Assembly: GCA_012963075.1 (NCBI GenBank)
Contig: DTWI01000208.1
Coordinates: forward strand, 1-8,452
Direction of reading: 5' to 3'
DNA from: Fidelibacterota bacterium
GTDB taxonomy: Bacteria; Marinisomatota; Marinisomatia; Marinisomatales; Marinisomataceae
DNA: 8,452 nucleotides
Every line of letters starts with the position of its first letter. The stretch's first letter is position 1. The notes under the pieces were generated by a model. The model had not been told where the DNA came from, did not search any database, and was given only the letters and a program-made list of their open reading frames with translations. A program made the translations under genes and the position numbers. Positions 1 through 8,452 of the stretch are shown here, piece after piece.

Positions 1-1437
1 TATTTCTATAATAAAATAGGTTTAAATTTTGAAGAATCAGTTCGTGCATCTTTACAACGAGTAGACGGTGCATACGGAATTGTTGTTTTAAACTCAGATG
101 AACCCGATATGATGGTTGCTGCTAGAAGCGGAAGTCCCCTAGTATTGGGAATCAAAGACCATGAATTTTTCTTAGCTAGTGATATTTCTCCAATTATCAA
201 ACATACCAAACAAATTATATATCTTGATGAGAAAGAAATGGTCATTCTTGAAGGAAAGAATTATGAGATTAAATCTGTTGATACAAACTTAAGTCTTTCA
301 AAAGAAATTAAAATTATCGATCACAAAATTCAGGACTTTGAAAAAGGAAGCTTTAAATATTTCATGCATAAGGAAATTCATGACCAAAATCATTCTATTA
401 CTGATACATTAAAAGGCAGAACTAATGATCATGATATTCTTTTACATGGTTTGTCAAAGTATTGGAATGATATTAAAGAAGCTAATCAAATATACATTAC
501 TGCGTGTGGTACATCTTGGCATGCGGGCCTTATTGGAAAAAATGTAATTGAACAATTCGCAAAAGTGCCTATTCACGTTGAATATGCATCTGAGTTTAGG
601 TATAATGATGTTATCTTTGATAATAAAACGGTTGTAATTGCTATTTCTCAATCAGGAGAAACAGCAGATACGCTTGCAGCTGTTAATAAAGCGAATGATG
701 TTGGTGCAATTACAATTGGAATTTGTAATGTTCCTGGAAGTTCTATAGCGAGAGCTACAGATTGTGGGGTATATACGCGATGTGGACATGAAATAGGGGT
801 TGCATCAACTAAAGCATTTACGGCACAAATAGTTATTCTTTATTTATTTGCTTTAAAATTAGCTTCTTCTAAGAAGACGATTAATTTACAAGTTGTATTG
901 AAAGTTTTCCACAGCAATTTTAGAGACTTAAATAAACAAGTACAGAATGTCTTACGTAGGGAGAAATATATTAAAAAAATTGCATTAAAATATAAAAACG
1001 CTTCAAGTTTTCTTTATTTAGGAAGAGGATTGAATTTTCCTATTGCGCTGGAAGGTGCCTTAAAATTAAAAGAAATATCTTATATCCATGCCGAAGGTTA
1101 TCCAGCTGCAGAAATGAAACATGGCCCCATTGCTTTAGTAGATAAACATATGCCCGTTATTTTTATAGCCCCAAAAGACAGAACATATAATAAAATTGTA
1201 TCAAATATTGAAGAGGTCAAAGCTAGAAAAGGAAAAATTATTATTATTACCGATTCTAAATCAAAAAGATTAAAAGATTTATCAGATGATTTAATTTTAT
1301 TACCATCTATTAGTCCTTATAGTTTTTCTTTATTGGCAACCATTGTTTTACAATTATTTGCGTTTTTCATTGCCGTAGCCAACAAACATGATGTAGATCA
1401 GCCAAGAAATTTAGCAAAAAGTGTTACTGTCGAGTAG
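1..1437 (+). CDS. glmS: Glutamine--fructose-6-phosphate aminotransferase (isomerizing), 5'-truncated by window edge
   Basis: GlmS is a cytoplasmic enzyme that converts fructose-6-phosphate and glutamine to glucosamine-6-phosphate, the first step towards UDP-GlcNAc. The frame is open from base 1, so the gene starts before the window; 478 residues are visible against about 600-610 in the family. The missing part holds the N-terminal Cys nucleophile. Residues 1 to about 85 are the end of the glutaminase domain (RVDGAYGIVVL, FLASDISPI). The first SIS domain shows ACGTSWHAG (Cys codon at 505), SQSGETADT (from 646) and GHEIGVASTKAFTAQ. The second SIS domain shows LGRGLNFPIALEGALKLKE and AEMKHGP. 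The C-terminal tail DQPRNLAKSVTVE carries the lysine (codon 1417-1419) that corresponds to the catalytic Lys603 of E. coli GlmS, so the enzyme looks intact. The last 18 bases are repeated twice downstream (see repeats). An ATG at 109 is internal and not the true start. Confidence 0.97.
   Translation, partial: YFYNKIGLNFEESVRASLQRVDGAYGIVVLNSDEPDMMVAARSGSPLVLGIKDHEFFLASDISPIIKHTKQIIYLDEKEMVILEGKNYEIKSVDTNLSLSKEIKIIDHKIQDFEKGSFKYFMHKEIHDQNHSITDTLKGRTNDHDILLHGLSKYWNDIKEANQIYITACGTSWHAGLIGKNVIEQFAKVPIHVEYASEFRYNDVIFDNKTVVIAISQSGETADTLAAVNKANDVGAITIGICNVPGSSIARATDCGVYTRCGHEIGVASTKAFTAQIVILYLFALKLASSKKTINLQVVLKVFHSNFRDLNKQVQNVLRREKYIKKIALKYKNASSFLYLGRGLNFPIALEGALKLKEISYIHAEGYPAAEMKHGPIALVDKHMPVIFIAPKDRTYNKIVSNIEEVKARKGKIIIITDSKSKRLKDLSDDLILLPSISPYSFSLLATIVLQLFAFFIAVANKHDVDQPRNLAKSVTVE
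1420..1437 (+). repeat. glmS 3'-end repeat, copy 1 (functional glmS terminus)
   Basis: This 18-base stretch reads agt gtt act gtc gag tag and encodes SVTVE-stop, the end of the intact glmS. It matches each of the two downstream copies (1989-2006 and 2360-2377) at 14 of 18 positions. Most differences are at third codon positions or in the stop codon. This is the copy currently used by glmS. Confidence 0.8.
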
Positions 1438-1450
1438 TTTCGGGTAGATT
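1437..1450 (+). repeat. Left arm of a perfect 14-bp inverted repeat
   Basis: The sequence gtttcgggtagatt begins on the last base of the glmS stop codon. Its exact reverse complement, aatctacccgaaac, lies at 1972-1985. The two arms enclose the MORN-repeat gene and its downstream spacer, a 549-bp unit. They are too far apart to be an ordinary terminator hairpin. They resemble the terminal inverted repeats of a small non-autonomous element, but I see no clean target-site duplication directly outside them (gta on the left, gag on the right). Confidence 0.7.
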
Positions 1451-1455
1451 TTTCT

Positions 1456-1854
1456 ATGACTAAAAAAATCAAAGACGGACCATTCAAAACCTACCACGAA
1501 AACGAACAACTCTGGTATCAAGGAACCTACAAAGATGGAAAAATGGATGGACCATTCAAAACCTACCACGACAACGGACAACTCAAATCAGAAGGAACCT
1601 TCAAAGATGATAAAATAGATGGACTTTGGAAATACTACTACGACAACGGACAACTCAGATCAGAAAGAACCTTCAAAGATGATAAACGAGATGGACCATT
1701 CAAAGTCTACAACGACAACGGACAACTCAGATTAGAAGGAACCTACAAAGATAGAAAAATGGATGGACCATTCAAAACCTACCACGACAACGGACAACTC
1801 AAAGAAGAAGAAACCTACAAAGATGGTGAACTCATCGATTTCAAAGAATACTAA
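1456..1854 (+). CDS. MORN/YwqK-like repeat protein (five 24-residue repeats)
   Basis: This 132-residue protein is almost entirely tandem repeats. After MTKKIKD come five 24-residue units with the core GPFKTYHDNGQL..EGTYKDGKMD, then a short tail ending DFKEY. The pattern is that of MORN-variant proteins, often annotated as YwqK-family antitoxins, which fold as beta-hairpin repeats. Their function is poorly known, and I see no toxin partner here. There is no signal peptide or membrane segment, so it is probably cytoplasmic. It starts 18 bases after the glmS stop with no Shine-Dalgarno. Codon use differs sharply from the neighbours: 11 of 12 Tyr codons are TAC, all Asn codons are AAC, and Phe is TTC, while glmS prefers TAT, AAT and TTT. 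The + strand is poor in T. Codon use, repeats and flanking inverted repeats all suggest an acquired gene. Confidence 0.85.
   Translation: MTKKIKDGPFKTYHENEQLWYQGTYKDGKMDGPFKTYHDNGQLKSEGTFKDDKIDGLWKYYYDNGQLRSERTFKDDKRDGPFKVYNDNGQLRLEGTYKDRKMDGPFKTYHDNGQLKEEETYKDGELIDFKEY
1477..1836 (+). repeat. Five tandem 72-bp in-frame repeats
   Basis: The units are 1477-1548, 1549-1620, 1621-1692, 1693-1764 and 1765-1836, each encoding 24 residues. Units 2 and 5 are identical over their first 39 bases. Unit 3 is the most divergent, reading GLWKYYYDNGQL in place of GPFKTYHDNGQL. High nucleotide identity between units in a whole number of codons would let copy number change by slippage or recombination without breaking the frame. 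By hand count unit 2 has 28 G/C in 72 bases. Confidence 0.9.
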
Positions 1855-2005
1855 TCCCTTTTTTCTCCAAACTTGAATTCTTTTTTTATAACTTTGGTAA
1901 TAATAGAAAACTTATAAGAAACAAATTGATTACTTTGAACATAATAACTAATAATGAGAATGGGTTTAACCAATCTACCCGAAACGAGAGTGATACTGTA
2001 GAATA
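1855..2005 (+). other. Spacer after the MORN-repeat gene; no clear terminator
   Basis: This 151-bp AT-rich spacer has two T runs (about 1858-1864 and 1880-1887) but no stem before them, so I cannot call a terminator. Its 3' end holds the right arm of the 14-bp inverted repeat and then copy 2 of the glmS end. Read in the frame of copy 2, codons from 1953 give NENGFNQSTRNESDTVE-stop, which loosely resembles the glmS tail NKHDVDQPRNLAKSVTVE-stop if small gaps are allowed. It may therefore include a longer decayed glmS tail. I see no reliable RNA gene. Confidence 0.45.
1972..1985 (-). repeat. Right arm of the perfect 14-bp inverted repeat
   Basis: The sequence aatctacccgaaac is the exact reverse complement of 1437-1450. 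It lies three bases before copy 2 of the glmS end, so the right border of the MORN-bearing unit sits next to a repeated glmS terminus, just as the left border sits at the real one. Confidence 0.7.
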
Positions 2006-2006
2006 A
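1989..2006 (+). pseudogene. glmS 3'-end repeat, copy 2 (remnant)
   Basis: The bases agt gat act gta gaa taa read SDTVE-stop. They match the true glmS end at 14 of 18 positions and copy 3 at 14 of 18. The upstream codons lack the intact LAK motif with the catalytic lysine, so this is a remnant and not a working terminus. Its TAA stop shares a base with the ATG of the following small membrane ORF (taATG), a junction like the coupled one at copy 3. Confidence 0.65.
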
Positions 2007-2218
2007 TGAAAACCTTTAATTTTTTGTTAATATGGATATTTGGATTTTTTGTATTGTTATCTTTTGATTTATTTATGGAAGGTATTGTTTTTGAATGGTT
2101 GGATTGGAATGGAACAACAAAAAATGATTGGTTTTTTGTTTTATGGTGGGGAGTAGTAGTCGTTTGGTTTTTATATGGAATTTATAATTTTTATCTAAGA
2201 TTTAACGAAGATAGTTGA
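2006..2218 (+). CDS. Small two-helix membrane protein, unknown function
   Basis: This 70-residue ORF encodes a very hydrophobic, Trp- and Phe-rich protein. One membrane helix spans about residues 5-27 and a second about residues 42-62. They are joined by a polar loop (WNGTTKNDW) and followed by a charged tail ending RFNEDS. The first helix could be read as a signal anchor. I do not recognise a family. The start ATG overlaps the stop of the glmS remnant, with no good Shine-Dalgarno. It lies alone in the second inserted segment between two glmS-end repeats. The hydrophobic pattern and continuous frame support a real gene, but T-rich DNA can give hydrophobic ORFs by chance. Confidence 0.5.
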   Translation: MKTFNFLLIWIFGFFVLLSFDLFMEGIVFEWLDWNGTTKNDWFFVLWWGVVVVWFLYGIYNFYLRFNEDS

Positions 2219-2373
2219 TTACTCAAACCCCAACCGAAACCCTTTATAGTCCCAATTAATCAGTTTTTTATTAAATTGGTATTTATTAGGTTGAAAACAA
2301 TATGAAACTGATAACTCAAAGAATAAGTAGGGACTTTTTTTCACCCTACAATAACCTATAGTGTGACTGTAGA
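2219..2373 (+). other. Spacer between the small membrane ORF and the LpoA-like gene
   Basis: This 155-bp stretch has no convincing + strand gene. It contains weak inverted repeats (atcagttt at 2259-2266 with aaactgat at 2305-2312) and one stronger GC-rich hairpin at 2327-2349. It ends in copy 3 of the glmS terminus. A minus-strand frame crosses it but runs into the start of the downstream gene and looks like a shadow. Confidence 0.4.
2327..2349 (+). other. Short GC-rich hairpin with a T-rich loop
   Basis: The arms gtaggg (2327-2332) and ccctac (2344-2349) can form a perfect 6-bp stem. The 11-base loop contains seven T residues. The T run is inside the loop and not after the stem, so it is not a standard intrinsic terminator. 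It lies 11 bases before copy 3 of the glmS end and may be a border structure of the second inserted segment. Confidence 0.4.
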
Positions 2374-2377
2374 GTGA
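2360..2377 (+). pseudogene. glmS 3'-end repeat, copy 3 (remnant, probably the ancestral glmS end)
   Basis: The bases agt gtg act gta gag tga encode SVTVE-stop, the same peptide as the real glmS end, with wobble differences and TGA in place of TAG. The final GTGA contains the GTG start of the LpoA-like gene, a classic four-base coupled junction. This is what an original glmS/LpoA-like overlap would look like after the rest of glmS was separated from it by insertion. Confidence 0.7.
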
Positions 2378-4200
2378 AAAGATTATTAATAATTTTATTT
2401 TTCTCAATTGTATTGAGTCAAGAAGGAAATTCTGCCTATCTAAGATTAGAATTAGAGAATGCTATAAAAGATATTAATGCAAGACGATTCGATAGTGCAA
2501 TTTCACGAATTGAAAATACTAATTTTTTAGATTCAGAATATCTGAATCACTCTTTAATTCTTAAGATGAAAGCACTGCGTGGTATTAATGCTATAGATCA
2601 ATCTTTATTTGTTGCGAAACAAATTAATAGAAATGGCTTAAATGCAAATCTTCAAACAATATATAGCTTAGAACTTGGAGATATTTTCTCTGAAATGGGA
2701 TTATTTGATGAATCATTTGAACACTATCTTAGTGCAAGGAAATCAAATATTGACACAAAGGCTAATAAAAGAATAAATCAAAGATTAAATAAATTGTTAA
2801 AAATGAATCTTAGCGAAGAAAATTTTTTATCTTTACAATTATTAGAAACTGATTTAACTAATTTAAATATACTAAAGCTTGCACATTCTTTTTTATTAGC
2901 TAGGAATCAATCAGAAAATTGGAAAAATGTATTTTCTTCAGTGGATTATTCCATGTTATCTAGGGAATTTAAATCTTCTTACAACTATCTAAAGAAAAAT
3001 ATGCCATACGATAATTATTCTATAGCAAAAATTGGAGTAGTTTTACCTCTAAGTGGAGATAATTCAGAATATGCACAAGCTTTTCTCTCAGGACTTCAAA
3101 AAGGGAGTGAATTATTAAAGAGCAAGAATAAAACTTCCTATGTTATTTATGATAATCGAGGAAGTCAATTAAGTACAATTAAGGCATTTAATGAACTTTA
3201 TTCTTTTCATAAAGTAGATGCAATCATAGGCCCTACTAATAGTAAAAATTTAATATCAGGAGCAACAGCTTTATCAAAGTCTGAAATACCAATCTTTGCA
3301 CCTGGATCAATTGATGAAGATATCCATTCTATCAATAGCAATGTTCATTTATTGAATTCTTCTCTTGATTATAAAAATGAAATTTTAGCTAATCATATGA
3401 TTAACAACCTTCAGTTAGAGAAAATTGCAATTATTGCCCCTAAAACAAATGATGGAATCAAAGAAGTTGATTCATTTTTAGAGCAAATGAATAGACTAAA
3501 TAAAGAGCCAGTATCAATTCAGTGGTACGAAAACACTGAACCAGTAGATTTAAGAGGTATTTTTACAGAATTAAGAGAAGTAGCATGGGAGATTCAACAC
3601 GCAGATGAATACAAAGAATTTTTGGGAATAGATATCGATATTCTTGATGCAATGTTTGATTTTGATTCAGACGATGTTTATGATATGTTTGATTTTAATA
3701 ACCAAGAGGAAGAGATTGATTCAACGAAAGTGATTCTAGATGTAATTGATGGTGTATTTTTGCCGTTATCTGGTGAAGGATTGACATATGTAGGTACGCA
3801 AATTGCTCTTGCAAATTTGGAAACACAGTTTTTTGGTAATGAGCTATGGTTAGACTTAGATTTTATAAATCAAGAGAATATATCCTCGCATATTATTGGA
3901 ATGTATTTTATCAGTAGTTTTCTACCTAATTATAGAGTTGGTAATCAATTTGATTACAATCCGAAATTAAATAATGCTTTCCATTATGGTCTTGATTTAT
4001 CTCGTTTTATTAATTCTACAATAGAAGATGATAAAAGTTTTAACATGTCCAATCAAAATTCGAATAAATATTCTTACACCAGAAAGTTTGATTTTAGTTC
4101 GGGTAAAGTAAATACAGATATTAACTTATTTAAATATTCAAACAGACGATTAATTAAAACTGAAATTATCAATAATCCAACTAATTCACATGTTGATTGA
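2374..4200 (+). CDS. LpoA-like secreted protein: TPR region plus periplasmic-binding (type 1) domain
   Basis: This 608-residue protein starts with a hydrophobic export signal (MKRLLIILFFSIVLS); there is no lipobox Cys, so it is probably soluble in the periplasm. Residues about 22-210 are helical and look like TPR repeats (for example SLELGDIFSEMGLFDESFEHYL). From about 217 the type 1 periplasmic-binding fold begins: IAKIGVVLPLSGDNSEYAQAFLSGLQKG, then VDAIIGPTNS, IPIFAPGS and LEKIAIIAP. TPR plus this fold is the layout of LpoA, the outer-membrane activator of PBP1A, and of related ABC-type binding proteins. The position by glmS, pgeF and uppP favours an envelope role, but activation of a synthase is inference. 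Residues about 409-450 form an unusual acidic insert. The GTG start is chosen because the signal peptide follows directly and it overlaps the glmS-like TGA. Confidence 0.8.
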   Translation: MKRLLIILFFSIVLSQEGNSAYLRLELENAIKDINARRFDSAISRIENTNFLDSEYLNHSLILKMKALRGINAIDQSLFVAKQINRNGLNANLQTIYSLELGDIFSEMGLFDESFEHYLSARKSNIDTKANKRINQRLNKLLKMNLSEENFLSLQLLETDLTNLNILKLAHSFLLARNQSENWKNVFSSVDYSMLSREFKSSYNYLKKNMPYDNYSIAKIGVVLPLSGDNSEYAQAFLSGLQKGSELLKSKNKTSYVIYDNRGSQLSTIKAFNELYSFHKVDAIIGPTNSKNLISGATALSKSEIPIFAPGSIDEDIHSINSNVHLLNSSLDYKNEILANHMINNLQLEKIAIIAPKTNDGIKEVDSFLEQMNRLNKEPVSIQWYENTEPVDLRGIFTELREVAWEIQHADEYKEFLGIDIDILDAMFDFDSDDVYDMFDFNNQEEEIDSTKVILDVIDGVFLPLSGEGLTYVGTQIALANLETQFFGNELWLDLDFINQENISSHIIGMYFISSFLPNYRVGNQFDYNPKLNNAFHYGLDLSRFINSTIEDDKSFNMSNQNSNKYSYTRKFDFSSGKVNTDINLFKYSNRRLIKTEIINNPTNSHVD

Positions 4201-4816
4201 TTATTCTGAAAAAATAAATGTAAAGAATTTAAATATTTTATTTTCACTATCTAATTTTGCTCAGTCTTTAGAGGATATTTCTGTTATAAGAATGAACCAA
4301 ACTCATTCTAATCAATCAATTTTTTTAAACCAATTTTCTAAACAATATGAATATTCAGATGGCATATTTAGTTCAAATAATCAATTAATTTTAGAAGTAA
4401 GTGTTGCAGATTGTATGCCGATCTTCTTTGCAGACAAAAATAAAAACTTTTTTGGAGTTGTGCATGCAGGTTGGAAAGGTTTAGCCGAAGGTATTATTGA
4501 AAACAGTATTGAATTGCTAATAAACGAAGGTTTTAGATTAGATAGTGTAAAAGTTTTAATTGGTCCATCAATAAGGCAGGATAATTTTGAAGTAAAGAAT
4601 GATGTTGCAGACCTTTTTGATGATAGATTTTCAACATTAAAAGATGGGAAGATTTTTTTAAGTTTACAAAAGATTGCAATGAGTAAATTAAGTGCTTATA
4701 ACATTCATGATGTGATGGATGTAGAAGAGTGTACTTATAATACTCCTACTTACTATTCATATAGGCGAAATAAAACAGAGAAAAGAATGAAAGGAAGAAT
4801 TTATTGGAATGAATGA
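4190..4816 (+). CDS. pgeF: Laccase-domain protein YfiH / peptidoglycan editing factor PgeF
   Basis: This 208-residue protein belongs to the YfiH/LACC1 family. E. coli PgeF is known to correct peptidoglycan precursors carrying L-Ser in place of L-Ala; relatives were first described as polyphenol oxidases and some act on purine nucleosides. The zinc-site residues are all visible: His39 in MNQTHSN, Cys75 in VADCMPI and His92 in VVHAGWKGL. Also present are IGPSI near residue 124 and the C-terminal YYSYRRNKTEKRM motif. At 208 residues it is shorter than the usual 240-260: the N-terminal loop with GGVS and SLNLG motifs is absent, yet the catalytic core is complete. The ATG overlaps the preceding gene by 11 bases, and no ATG lies upstream in the open frame. 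Confidence 0.9.
   Translation: MLIDYSEKINVKNLNILFSLSNFAQSLEDISVIRMNQTHSNQSIFLNQFSKQYEYSDGIFSSNNQLILEVSVADCMPIFFADKNKNFFGVVHAGWKGLAEGIIENSIELLINEGFRLDSVKVLIGPSIRQDNFEVKNDVADLFDDRFSTLKDGKIFLSLQKIAMSKLSAYNIHDVMDVEECTYNTPTYYSYRRNKTEKRMKGRIYWNE
4792..4797 (+). promoter_or_regulatory. Possible Shine-Dalgarno for uppP
   Basis: The purine run aggaag-like sequence (aaggaag around 4791-4797) inside the end of pgeF lies 11 bases before the ATG at 4809. It favours that start over the later in-frame ATG at 4821. Other genes in the window lack such a site and seem to rely on overlap coupling. Confidence 0.4.
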
Positions 4817-5582
4817 ATTAATGAATTATCTAATTTTAGGATTTATTCAAGGTGTTACAGAATTTTTTCCTATAAGTAGTTCTGGTCATTTAGTTTTATT
4901 TGAAGATTTTTTAAAAATTAAGAATGCTGGAGCCTCCGCAGAAATTATTGCGCACTTTGGTACATTGTTTAGCATTATTCTTTTTTATAAAGCGACATTT
5001 TTCTCAAATAAAAATTCTGATGATTTTTTCCATCTAAATACGCTAAAAATGCTTTCTATTTCTACTATTCCAGCTATTTTATGCGGACTATTTTTTGATT
5101 TAGAAGTATTCTTCAATTATGATTCTGTTAAGACCTTTTTAATGGCTAATGGATTGATTTTGTTAGGGCTGAGTAGGTTAAGGGCTAATATGGATAACTC
5201 TTCAATATTCAAGAGTCCTCGTGAATGGAAGTGGAATTATAAAACAGCACTTTTTCTAGGTTTTTTCCAAGCTTTTGCTATGCTACCTGGTATATCAAGA
5301 TCGGGCATGGTGATTAGTTCTGCATTATTTTTTGGTTTAGATAAGAAAAAAGCAATTCAATATGCTTTTTTTATGGTGATACCTGTTATTATACTATCAA
5401 TTTTTTATAAACTATTATTTTTTAATGGTTTTGAAACTATTTCTTTTGAATCAGGATTAGTTTTATTTCTATCTTCATTTGTATTTGGATATCTCAGTTT
5501 AACATTTTTAATCAAATTTCTTGAAAGATTCAGTTTTGCTTGGTTTGGATTATACTGTATAATTATTAGTTTAGTTTTATGA
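4809..5582 (+). CDS. uppP: Undecaprenyl-diphosphatase UppP (BacA)
   Basis: UppP is an integral inner-membrane enzyme that removes a phosphate from undecaprenyl diphosphate, recycling the lipid carrier for peptidoglycan and other envelope polymers. The 257-residue length fits the family (about 260-275). Both signature motifs are present: GVTEFFPISSSGH at residues 15-27 (Glu18, the serine triplet and His27) and PGISRSG at 160-166 (Arg164). About seven to eight hydrophobic helices are visible. The first catalytic-region Glu of E. coli UppP is Gln14 here, a change common in other UppP proteins. The start overlaps pgeF by eight bases. Family members commonly tolerate bacitracin when abundant, but that is family knowledge. 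Confidence 0.95.
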   Translation: MNELMNYLILGFIQGVTEFFPISSSGHLVLFEDFLKIKNAGASAEIIAHFGTLFSIILFYKATFFSNKNSDDFFHLNTLKMLSISTIPAILCGLFFDLEVFFNYDSVKTFLMANGLILLGLSRLRANMDNSSIFKSPREWKWNYKTALFLGFFQAFAMLPGISRSGMVISSALFFGLDKKKAIQYAFFMVIPVIILSIFYKLLFFNGFETISFESGLVLFLSSFVFGYLSLTFLIKFLERFSFAWFGLYCIIISLVL

Positions 5583-6991
5583 TTGAAATAATTTTTACAC
5601 TCTATTTATTATTAATAATATTAATTGGTATTCTATCAAATAAATTTATTAATTCACAATTAGATTTTTTCTTAGCTGGGCGTAGACTTGGTCCTTGGGT
5701 AACTGCATTTTCTGAGAGAGCTTCTGGTGAATCAGCTTGGTTATTGTTGGGCTTACCAGGAGCTGCAATTGCAATTGGATATGGTGAAATATGGGCTGTT
5801 ATTGGGATTATCAGTGGTATTATTCTTTCCTGGTTTCTTATAGCAGAAAAATTGAGAGCCGAAACAGAACAATATGAAGCATTTACAATTCCTGATTACT
5901 TACATAAAAAATTTAATGATACATCAGGTATTATTAAAATATTTTCATCTGTAATTATTGCCGTCTTCTTTACTTTTTATGTTTCAGCCCAATTTCATGG
6001 CTCTGGAAAGATTTTAAATACTATTTTTGGAATAGAACCTTTGTATGGAATCTCTCTAGGAGCCTTAGTTATTATACTGTATACCATTATGGGAGGACTT
6101 TTAGCAGTTGCTTGGACTGATCTTGTACAGGGTATTTTGATGATTGGAACTTTAGTTATTCTACCAATTGTTGGTTTGATTGAATTGTCGTCTTTTGATA
6201 CTCCATTAAGAGATTTAATTATGAGCACAGATTCTGCAAAAAGTTCTTTGGTATCTGGATTAAGTGGGCTAGCTGCATTTTCGGTAATTATAGGTGGGTT
6301 AAGCTGGGGATTAGGTTACTTTGGTCAACCACATCTCTTAATTCGATATATGGCCATTAGATCAGTTAAAGACGTAAAAAAAGCGCGACTAATAGCTGCG
6401 TTATGGGCTATACCTGGTATCTCTGGTGCCTTTTTAATTGGAGTAATCGGTATGGGATACTTTGGAGAAGATTTTTTTATAGGTAAAGATGTAGAGAATG
6501 TTATGCCTATGCTTGCCAAAGAATTGTTACCTGCATGGTTAGCAGGATTGCTCATATCAGGTGCTGTTGCTGCTATGATGTCTACTGCAGATTCACAATT
6601 ATTGGTATCAACATCTGCTATTAGTGAAGATTTAGGGGTAAATGTATTAAAAAAATCTAATAAATTATTAAATAGTCGAGTTATAACAGTTCTTTTAGGA
6701 ATATTTGCCTATTTGGTGGCGATGTATTCCGAATGGAGTGGAAAAACTATCTTTAGTATTGTTAGTTTTGCATGGAGCGGTCTTGGATCATCCTTTGGTC
6801 CAGCATTACTGCTTTCATTGTGGTGGAAGGGAGTAACAAGAAAAGGAATTATTGCAGGTTTATTTACTGGATCTATTACCACTATTATTTGGGGGAGTAA
6901 CCCATATTTGCAATCTATTGTAACAGAGAGATTTATTAGTTTTGCTCTTGCTTTTGTTGCAATAATTATTATAAGTAAATACAGAAAATGA
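5579..6991 (+). CDS. PutP-like sodium/solute symporter (SSS family)
   Basis: This 470-residue inner-membrane protein, with about 13 hydrophobic helices, resembles the sodium/proline symporter PutP (about 500 residues). Matching stretches include FLAGRRLGPWVTAFS, WLLLGLPGA (54-62), LPDY-like TIPDYL (103-108), GGLLAVAWTDLVQ (172-184), GWGLGYFGQPH-like SWGLGYFGQPH (242-252) and MSTADSQLLVSTSAISEDL. Ser335 and Thr336 match the Na2-site Ser340/Thr341 of E. coli PutP. In the first unwound helix, E. coli ASDMSGW becomes ASGESAW (48-54), so the sodium-binding Asp55 is Gly50 and the next residue is Glu51. The substrate may be proline or another solute; I do not assign it. The ATG overlaps the uppP stop by four bases (ATGA). 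Confidence 0.88.
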   Translation: MIEIIFTLYLLLIILIGILSNKFINSQLDFFLAGRRLGPWVTAFSERASGESAWLLLGLPGAAIAIGYGEIWAVIGIISGIILSWFLIAEKLRAETEQYEAFTIPDYLHKKFNDTSGIIKIFSSVIIAVFFTFYVSAQFHGSGKILNTIFGIEPLYGISLGALVIILYTIMGGLLAVAWTDLVQGILMIGTLVILPIVGLIELSSFDTPLRDLIMSTDSAKSSLVSGLSGLAAFSVIIGGLSWGLGYFGQPHLLIRYMAIRSVKDVKKARLIAALWAIPGISGAFLIGVIGMGYFGEDFFIGKDVENVMPMLAKELLPAWLAGLLISGAVAAMMSTADSQLLVSTSAISEDLGVNVLKKSNKLLNSRVITVLLGIFAYLVAMYSEWSGKTIFSIVSFAWSGLGSSFGPALLLSLWWKGVTRKGIIAGLFTGSITTIIWGSNPYLQSIVTERFISFALAFVAIIIISKYRK

Positions 6992-7992
6992 TTAAAGCAT
7001 TACAGTCTATTCAGCATCTTAAGAATCATCCAGATTCTAATTATTTATTAGTTGGTGACCATGATTTCCTCTATTTATATATAAAAAATTTGGTTAAAAA
7101 AACACATTTTGAGTCTTTGGAATCTATTTCTTTCGATTGTTCTGAAAAATCTGGAGTGGAAGATAAAATCTTAAATAGTCTTACATCTATAGATTTGTTT
7201 GAATCTAAAAAATTTCTAACTATAAAAAATATTAACAAAGTTAGTAAGAAAAATAGAGAAACATTTATAAATACAATATCCAAGAATGATGGTTCAAACG
7301 TAATAATCTGTACGGATTCTTCTTTTTTAGGATTTGACTACAAATCAAATAAAAATTTTATTAAAAGCCAATTTGTTAATGATATTGCACCATTTTTCAC
7401 TGTTGTTGATATTAGTATTCCGTTTGAAAGTGAAATGATACGATGGGTAAAAATTTTCTCGAATGACTTTAGTTTTAAAATAAATAATAAGATTGCTAAG
7501 GATTTGGTTGAAATATTTGGGAATAATTTTTCAGCTATCTATAATGAAATTTCTAAACTGAGTATTATTACTGATAGCATAGACGATATTAATCAGGATT
7601 GGTTAGACAGTTTTTATGACTGGAAAAAGAATAAACAGCTTTGGGAATTGAATTATGCTATTTGCGATAAAGATATTGATAAAATCTTGTCATCAGGTCT
7701 ATCAATACTCAATCAGTTTGGTGTTTTGTATATTACCAATTCTTTTTTTACAATTTTTGAGGCACTTTTTCTTGCTAAGTTAAATAATGGAACAATTACT
7801 GATATGAGCCGTAAGAATTTAAGAGGAAAGATTATAAATAAAATTTCCTCATCTTCAGAGAAATATACTATTGAAGAAATTGAAAGAGGTATTAATTTAT
7901 TAGCCGATTTAGATAAAAGAGTTAAAACAAGAAATATTATTGATGAGTCAGAATTTACAAACCTTATTACACAAATCTACCGATATGAATGA
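6988..7992 (+). CDS. holA: DNA polymerase III subunit delta (clamp loader)
   Basis: Delta opens the beta sliding clamp as part of the clamp-loader complex. The protein is 334 residues (E. coli delta is 343). The N-terminal AAA+-like domain begins with YLLVGDHDFLYLYIKNLV (19-36) and, as expected for delta, has no Walker A P-loop. LFESKKFLTIKNINK (70-84) fits the clamp-contact region, where E. coli delta uses a Leu-Phe pair; here Leu70-Phe71. IFGNNFSAIYNEISKL (176-191) matches the domain II VGNDL..L.NEL.KL pattern, and LADLDKRVKTR (305-315) fits the C-terminal collar. Sequence divergence is high, as usual for delta. The ATG overlaps the symporter stop by four bases. Confidence rests on several ordered motifs, not on one catalytic residue. 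Confidence 0.87.
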   Translation: MIKALQSIQHLKNHPDSNYLLVGDHDFLYLYIKNLVKKTHFESLESISFDCSEKSGVEDKILNSLTSIDLFESKKFLTIKNINKVSKKNRETFINTISKNDGSNVIICTDSSFLGFDYKSNKNFIKSQFVNDIAPFFTVVDISIPFESEMIRWVKIFSNDFSFKINNKIAKDLVEIFGNNFSAIYNEISKLSIITDSIDDINQDWLDSFYDWKKNKQLWELNYAICDKDIDKILSSGLSILNQFGVLYITNSFFTIFEALFLAKLNNGTITDMSRKNLRGKIINKISSSSEKYTIEEIERGINLLADLDKRVKTRNIIDESEFTNLITQIYRYE

Positions 7993-8452
7993 CGAATTTA
8001 AATTAACGGACGAACGATTAATTAAACAATTCCAGGAAGGAGATCGTCATGCATTCGATGAATTGGTAAAACGATATAAAGATCGATTGCACAATTTTGT
8101 ATATAGATATATGAATAATCAAACTCTTGCAGAAGATGTTGTTCAAGAAACAATGATTAAACTTTATACCCATAAACATTATTATAAGCCTATTGCAAAA
8201 TTTTCTACTTGGATATATACAATTGCTAAGAATCTTGCGTTAACAGAGCTAAGAAAAAACAAAAGAAGACGAACAAATTCATTGTGGACTGACGATGGAA
8301 GACCTATTGATATTGAAATGGGTGGAGAATCTTTAGATAATAAGGTTCAAAATGAGTTGGCTGTTGAAGAATTGAAGAAATGTTTAGATAAAATTCCTGA
8401 GAATTTTCGTATTGCAGTTGTTTTAAGAGATTTTCAGGAACTTTCTTATGAA
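7985..8452 (+). CDS. ECF-type RNA polymerase sigma factor (RpoE-like), 3'-truncated by window edge
   Basis: The frame starting at ATG 7985 stays open for 156 codons to the window edge. Region 2 covers about residues 11-95: LIKQFQEGDRHAFDELVKRYKDR, then AEDVVQETMIKLY (49-61) and FSTWIYTIAKNLALTELRKNKRR (73-95). A variable acidic linker follows, and region 4 begins with ELKKCLDKIPENFRIAVVLRDFQELSYE. This two-domain plan with no region 1 or 3 is the ECF sigma plan. It directs RNA polymerase to a stress or envelope regulon in other bacteria; the regulon here is unknown. The start overlaps the holA stop by eight bases. An anti-sigma gene may lie beyond the window. Confidence 0.93.
   Translation, partial: MNDEFKLTDERLIKQFQEGDRHAFDELVKRYKDRLHNFVYRYMNNQTLAEDVVQETMIKLYTHKHYYKPIAKFSTWIYTIAKNLALTELRKNKRRRTNSLWTDDGRPIDIEMGGESLDNKVQNELAVEELKKCLDKIPENFRIAVVLRDFQELSYE

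Follow-up and report, generated by a model that had tools for sequence, protein, structure and literature searches.

The closest described counterparts of the DNA analysed here are the staphylococcal and enterococcal cassette chromosomes (SCC and ECC), which are served by Ccr enzymes of the large serine recombinase (LSR) family and are inserted at the 3′ end of the conserved gene rlmH. In a study of ECC, the attachment (att) sites are about 50 bp long with dyad symmetry, gene-end repeats and several attR sites are present at one locus, the recombinase genes in many cases sit on small contigs or close to the end of a contig, and an element measures 32 kb (PMC6222049). The attP sites of phage large serine integrases, as published, have 25-bp half-sites with a distal zinc-ribbon motif at positions 16-24 and a central dinucleotide (PMC3783163). 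The stretch under study, referred to as the window, comprises 8,452 nucleotides of a Fidelibacterota bacterium (contig DTWI01000208.1, positions 1 to 8,452 of the forward strand) and contains three copies of the 3′ end of glmS in a row. To judge from sequence comparison, these copies are probably the product of SCC-like, mostly non-autonomous mini-cassettes that depend on a serine integrase and use the glmS 3′ end as attB. The window array is one instance of a recurrent system in Neomarinimicrobiota relatives.

The traits listed above for SCC and ECC, apart from target, size and the Ccr type of the enzyme, are shared by the glmS loci. The differences are that the target is glmS and not rlmH, that the phylum is another, that the cassettes measure 78 bp to about 3 kb, and that a single LSR stands beside the core in place of a CcrAB pair, with several arm families sharing one target. 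The half-site length and the distal motif are points of likeness to the phage attP and attB sites, and a central dinucleotide may be another. Among the papers listed by a literature search, with most subscription journals outside its reach, none dealt with serine-integrase cassettes at glmS, to judge by titles and the beginnings of abstracts.

The initial annotation had described the three 18-base gene ends, and their positions were confirmed at 1420-1437 (AGTGTTACTGTCGAGTAG), 1989-2006 (AGTGATACTGTAGAATAA) and 2360-2377 (AGTGTGACTGTAGAGTGA), all on the + strand, with 14 of 18 identical bases in every pair and spacings of 569 and 371 bp. The repetition is real, as claimed there, but not all of the copies encode Ser-Val-Thr-Val-Glu-stop, since copy 2 reads Ser-Asp-Thr-Val-Glu-stop. 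Core copy 1 had no other match in the window at up to 3 mismatches, so the repeats are degenerate. This copy is attL-like and is the present functional end of glmS, with its dyad centre between 1426 and 1427. The 3′ part of glmS (1..1437, + strand) contained SIS domains on Pfam and ends in PRNLAKSVTVE, and its 3′ end is the insertion target.

Between its two dyad centres, cassette 1 (1427..1995, + strand) measures 569 bp, and a motif-free search for symmetric arms placed its best centre here. Its left arm, GTTTCGGGTAGATT (1437..1450), and its right arm, AATCTACCCGAAAC (1972..1985), both on the + strand, were found by inverted-repeat search, and the right arm is the exact complement of the left. 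This perfect 14-bp inverted repeat, which was overlooked earlier, flanks the cassette and is centred exactly on the core; the arm score was 14 at this offset and at most 2 at shifted offsets. From the left dyad centre onward, locus L014 was identical to the window over 25 of 25 bases. The cassette carries one gene (1456..1854, + strand) for a 132-aa MORN_2 repeat protein (Pfam PF07661, E=9.4e-36). Internally, this gene is made of 72-bp direct repeats (1473-1830).

Core copy 2 (1989..2006, + strand; attR-like) has its dyad centre between 1995 and 1996, and the right half of this copy is interpreted as an older end of glmS that has been displaced. The copy is followed by an open reading frame (ORF) for a 70-aa two-helix membrane protein (2006..2218, + strand) with no Pfam hit, as is the glmS end in L003; the DNA of this gene showed 79% identity in L003 and 81% in L004. 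Core copy 3 (2360..2377, + strand; attR-like, read directly as an 18-mer) overlaps the start codon of lpoA and is probably the original and oldest displaced glmS end beside lpoA, because in L118 and L119, too, the end of glmS and the lpoA frame overlap. A right arm of unit 2, TTTTTCACCCTACAATAAC (2337..2355, + strand), resembles the CACCCTCC arms of L013 and L018, and no matching left arm was found anywhere in the window (arm score 1). The description of two equivalent units was therefore not upheld, as cassette 1 has matching arms and unit 2 has none, and the two-helix gene directly follows glmS in L003. Cassette 1 is a clean unit.

The proposal of a cassette-like array at the glmS end was supported by empty sites and sites of alternative content in relatives. 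In the empty locus L008, glmS stands directly before ATGTCAATTATATGAATAAT, while in the filled locus L019 an insert of 1.2 kb ends in a core that is then followed by ATGTCAATTATATGAATAAT. A second comparison is given by L003, where the two-helix gene lies directly after glmS, and the window, where cassette 1 lies between them. The glmS end of L019 shared its bases with the empty L008 up to core position 8 and differed at position 12, which would place the exchange between 8 and 12.

The survey of relatives was built from 19 loci with an lpoA-like gene, taken from genome contigs, and from a glmS query that matched in 121 of the 171 genomes of the class, from which 77 regions downstream of glmS were taken (20, 20, 20 and 17). 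In 87 loci, the motif A[CG]NGTNGARTRR was present at 84 glmS ends and at 26 further places in the 4.5 kb that follow glmS (277,874 bases), in every case on its strand. The opposite strand of this region contained no copy, there was none in 74,366 bases upstream of glmS, and one was found further away. Five of the 26 hits lay in long frames on the glmS strand and were dropped (L111, L119, L141, L154, with a frame of 364 codons, and L174). This left 21 core copies in 16 loci on the glmS strand versus 0 on the opposite strand, and the cassettes that they close span 78 to 2907 bp. The gene-end repeats exceed chance. Across whole genomes, the strict core CCRTNACNGTNGARTRR gave 31 hits in the 171 genomes, and the reversed control gave 22. 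The majority of the matches that do not lie at glmS are therefore probably due to chance. The dropping of the L111 hit was doubtful, as this core-like 18-mer (L111:1256, oriented) lies near a predicted lpoA start; it was left out of the counts but, as with copy 3 of the window, may in truth be a glmS end that was displaced.

The motif-free search scored symmetric complementarity to the right flank of glmS only, and only best centres scoring at least 9 were reported. In 8 of 81 loci the best centre fell on a core copy, at the junction of core bases 7 and 8 (the window, L105, L114, L128, L129, L161, L162 and L168; in L128 and L168 other centres scored equally high). The overall score distribution resembled the cross-locus null, and the signal lies in where the best centres fall. 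Arm pairs scoring at least 8.5 were present in 12 of the 21 cassettes, cassette 1 of the window among them, compared with 1.8% of mismatched arm pairs. With the centre fixed, complementarity over the 21 cassettes rose at a distance of about 12, peaked at 22 (0.81) and was gone at 29 (0.14). At distances 12-27, 204 of 336 cells were paired, against a permuted mean of 117.4 and a maximum of 174, and 0 of 20,000 permutations reached the observed value; when the doubtful L111 hit was retained, the count was 210 of 352, again with 0 of 20,000. Complementary arms at 12-28 bp from one fixed core point correspond in layout to the attP of large serine integrases, a site of about 50 bp made of dyad half-sites. 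Arm families recurred in distant genomes (GGAGGGTG, AGGGGGTATT, TTTGATAGTTCT, TTCCAACTAAA and TTTCGGGTAGATT), the last of them in both the window and L014. The individual arm scores, the mismatched-pair null and the arm-family comparison were computed with L154 included; when the arm statistics were recomputed without this hit, the conclusion stayed the same. The smallest members are gene-less units of 78 bp in L168 (1186-1264, oriented) and L170 (117-195), with paired arms between two cores.

Large serine recombinase genes were found abutting cores in relatives, which points to the LSRs as the enzyme class, one for which the initial annotation had named no candidate. A 7249-bp contig of genome G111, reached through the strict core pattern, encodes a protein of 632 aa that combines Resolvase, Recombinase and Zn-ribbon domains, as do phage large serine integrases, and ends 40 bp before a core centre. 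The contig of G135 starts inside a partial LSR gene whose C-terminus likewise ends 40 bp before a core centre. The contig of G162 opens within a glmS end, and an LSR frame of 599 aa, encoded on the other strand, runs up to this end. The arm of the G162 element, TCCAACCCCAA, recurred in register in a 1072-bp cassette of G145 (0 of 1608 shifted controls as good); this cassette contains no LSR, and its one long ORF had no Pfam match. PF07508 was matched in 19 of the 171 class genomes. The LSRs of G111 and G162 showed 26% identity. The G111 LSR had 79 relatives in the protein collection, of which the three naming an organism were Bacteroidota, and it matched three sequences of solved structure (YokA twice and TP901-1). 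In contrast to phage integrases, its relatives were not found in viral contigs; P0164, a relative of 36% identity that was used in place of the G111 LSR itself, had no match in 50,697 phage records (E<=1e-20), and no phage family library was run on the cassettes. P0164 was also absent from the plasmids searched and from 395 genomes of the class of G015 (E<=1e-60), a search that had no positive control and shows little. The window itself contained no LSR gene. An enzyme acting in trans, as had been proposed, is supported as the most likely arrangement.

Under the preferred reading, the glmS 3′ end (Ser-Val-Thr-Val-Glu-stop) would serve a family of Neomarinimicrobiota large serine integrases as chromosomal attB. 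The integrase gene would lie beside the attachment site in a few integrative elements, which are autonomous. Most inserts, including cassette 1 of the window, would be non-autonomous and consist of two attachment half-sites that enclose a short gene or no gene; the enzyme for the lineage of the window would then be supplied from elsewhere. Recombination would take place between a cassette in circular form and the end of glmS, close to the dyad centre (core bases 7-8, usually 'AC'). The incoming half would supply Val-Glu-stop and restore glmS, and the old gene end would be pushed to the far side and remain as the next core copy. Repeated events would build a tandem array with the newest cassette next to glmS.

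Several results weigh against this mechanism. The exchange point is only bracketed, and the dyad centre at bases 7-8 fits only if position 8 changed later. Core bases 7-9 are AGC in the glmS of L008, L012 and L019 and ACC in the right copy of L019, a mismatch of AG versus AC that requires either that one copy mutated afterwards or that the exchange took place rightward of base 8. Inserts that share a left arm also differed at base 9 (L018 twice and L098; L112 versus L237). Strong arms were wanting in 9 of the 21 cassettes, and weak scores were obtained for L007 (6.5), L011 (3), L013 (5 and 3), L018 (2 and 3), L113 (7) and the second cassette of L114 (2), besides window unit 2. A large proportion of the loci (71 of 87) had no retained core copy in the available sequence, which extended up to 4.5 kb and was often cut by short contigs. 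No intact LSR was found in the family of the window, where PF07508 was matched only in G008, as a 285-aa frame with a stop, the window's own genome being outside this search; PF00239 was matched in 3 of 25. The arms of the LSR elements of G111 and G135 matched no cassette convincingly, and the LSR and the glmS of G111 are on different contigs. Finally, G162 holds two glmS ends (L154 and L270) and may therefore mix strains.

Among the other explanations, integron-like capture would use a tyrosine recombinase (IntI or XerC/XerD) on folded single-strand hairpin sites, with the glmS end as attI. The loci share with integrons the short gene cassettes in tandem, mostly in the orientation of the anchor gene, and an enzyme that would come from elsewhere; the arms vary in sequence yet still pair, and Val-Glu-stop (GTNGARTRR) resembles the integron box, which is GTTRRRY. 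In relatives, moreover, where PF00589 was matched in 17 of 19 genomes, the tyrosine recombinases that recurred fell into two types (about 302-306 aa), interpreted as XerC- and XerD-like. This explanation is nevertheless unlikely, since the arms lie outside the core around one centre and not inside an attC-type hairpin, the arm families recur in the fixed register expected for protein recognition, and the cores are abutted by LSR genes and not by IntI. Recombinase class and site architecture would differ from those of integrons, and the anchor here is a housekeeping gene. When folded as single strands, the tails did not stand out (z -1.52, -0.63 and +0.91), attC-likeness being judged by eye from folds and alignment. 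An integron integrase was rejected as the general enzyme, as it scored above the TIGR02249 cut-off in only 1 of 31 genomes and was not next to glmS. Partial matches below the cut-off were found in G085 and G162. For XerC/XerD acting on a dif-like core, the dif-type pattern gave fewer total hits than its reversed control in each of 12 genomes. A full integron integrase (432 bits to TIGR02249) was seen at a contig start in L187 (G110 C156).

Transposition of a Tn7-like or miniature inverted-repeat transposable element (MITE)-like kind, in which the core copies would be target-site duplications and the arms terminal inverted repeats, is quite improbable. Tn7 is known to target glmS, the arms are inverted at the two ends, the gene-less 78-bp units look MITE-like, and a small L129 protein gave a match below cut-off to the helix-turn-helix domain of the Sleeping Beauty transposase. 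However, Tn7 inserts downstream of glmS, duplicates 5 bp and leaves the gene end uncopied, unlike the glmS system with its gene-end copies of 12-18 degenerate bases and its insertion inside a coding end that gets rebuilt. The copies were not identical even in the best pair of empty and filled sites, on which ground this reading was rejected, and 12 proteins of cassettes or glmS-adjacent inserts contained no transposase catalytic domain, although no genome-wide search for Tns genes was made. Homologous recombination, which had been offered earlier as a possible builder of the array, was not supported; in the form of recombination between displaced gene ends that arrive by natural transformation, it is rated still lower. 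DNA carrying a glmS end could recombine, and several contigs break at the glmS end, but RecA-type recombination needs more than 12-18 degenerate bases, and the fixed dyad geometry of the arms is left unexplained. Accidental gene-end matches among variable intergenic genes, by chance or by selection on features of the 3′ untranslated region, would suit pairs that are only 14/18 alike and the five hits in coding frames; the strand bias of 21 to 0, the arm permutations and the empty and filled sites make this the least credible explanation of all.

The serine-integrase reading can be extended, at somewhat less than even odds, to a phylum-wide platform for gene capture at the glmS end, a counterpart of the integron in which integrases of differing arm specificity, on rare autonomous elements, would insert and swap micro-cassettes transcribed from the glmS promoter, maybe as a site of rapid adaptation in streamlined ocean genomes. 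Uncultured ocean bacteria with streamlined genomes are commonly regarded as poor in mobile elements. If the reading is true, these bacteria have a defined plug-in site that takes cassettes down to 78 bp and repairs the target gene each time, which would explain a variable locus across many lineages and offer a simple assay for gene flow. SCC-like biology would then extend far beyond staphylococci and enterococci, and the LSRs with their attP/attB pairs would be new site-specific tools aimed at glmS ends.

The cargo included MORN_2 proteins (the window by Pfam, one L018 protein below cut-off, and L014, L114 and others by eye), HNH endonucleases in L007, L018 and L098, the last without a right-hand core, and small membrane proteins recognised by eye. 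In nine loci (L105, L116, L123, L128, L131, L132, L137, L155 and L162, with L123 and L132 as model seeds), the first frame after glmS was a short one resembling the C-terminal DNA-binding segment of an LSR without the catalytic domain; a directionality factor or a competitor is possible. Most main cassette ORFs read with glmS, as judged by eye, and L129 and L113 carry a small frame antisense.

A conserved cassette tail of about 140 bp (2219..2359, + strand) was recognised by alignment and is common to the window, L013 and L018, with 77-81% DNA identity. Tail-related DNA was matched in 7 of 26 genomes, two of them weakly, and a 28-base pattern of it had no exact match in viral contigs and none in plasmids. 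The antisense frame of the window tail reads ...LINWDYKGFRLGFE-stop, and the antisense tails of the window, L013 and L018 read ...LINWDYKGFRLGF(E)-stop, as if holding a gene remnant.

The window contained glmS, the two short ORFs, the lpoA-like gene, Cu-oxidase_4 (yfiH-like), BacA/uppP, a sodium symporter, DNA polymerase III delta and sigma-70, and megablast gave no match to phage records. The LpoA-like periplasmic-binding gene (2374..4200, + strand; Pfam PF13458 / PF04348) is the right-hand anchor of the hotspot. Among the 120 matches listed for its protein, those naming an organism were Candidatus Neomarinimicrobiota, a group that we take to be the one labelled SAR406, and no relatives were found in viral contigs. 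One relative of the protein, P0001, showed 95% identity and lies on a 13 kb contig. Where both genes were visible (35 of 86 loci), the gap between glmS and lpoA ranged from an overlap to about 4 kb; L119 was scored as lacking lpoA because its lpoA frame begins before the glmS stop. The contigs of L124, L136, L148, L130 and L135 break off no more than about 12 bases from the stop codon of glmS, which would be expected if inserts that vary between strains disrupt assembly; L130 and L135 are 118-119 bases long with no recognised gene end. Lastly, glmS was split over several frames in G011 (C2:195750-197187) and G016 (C1:178927-180334), by either assembly error or decay.

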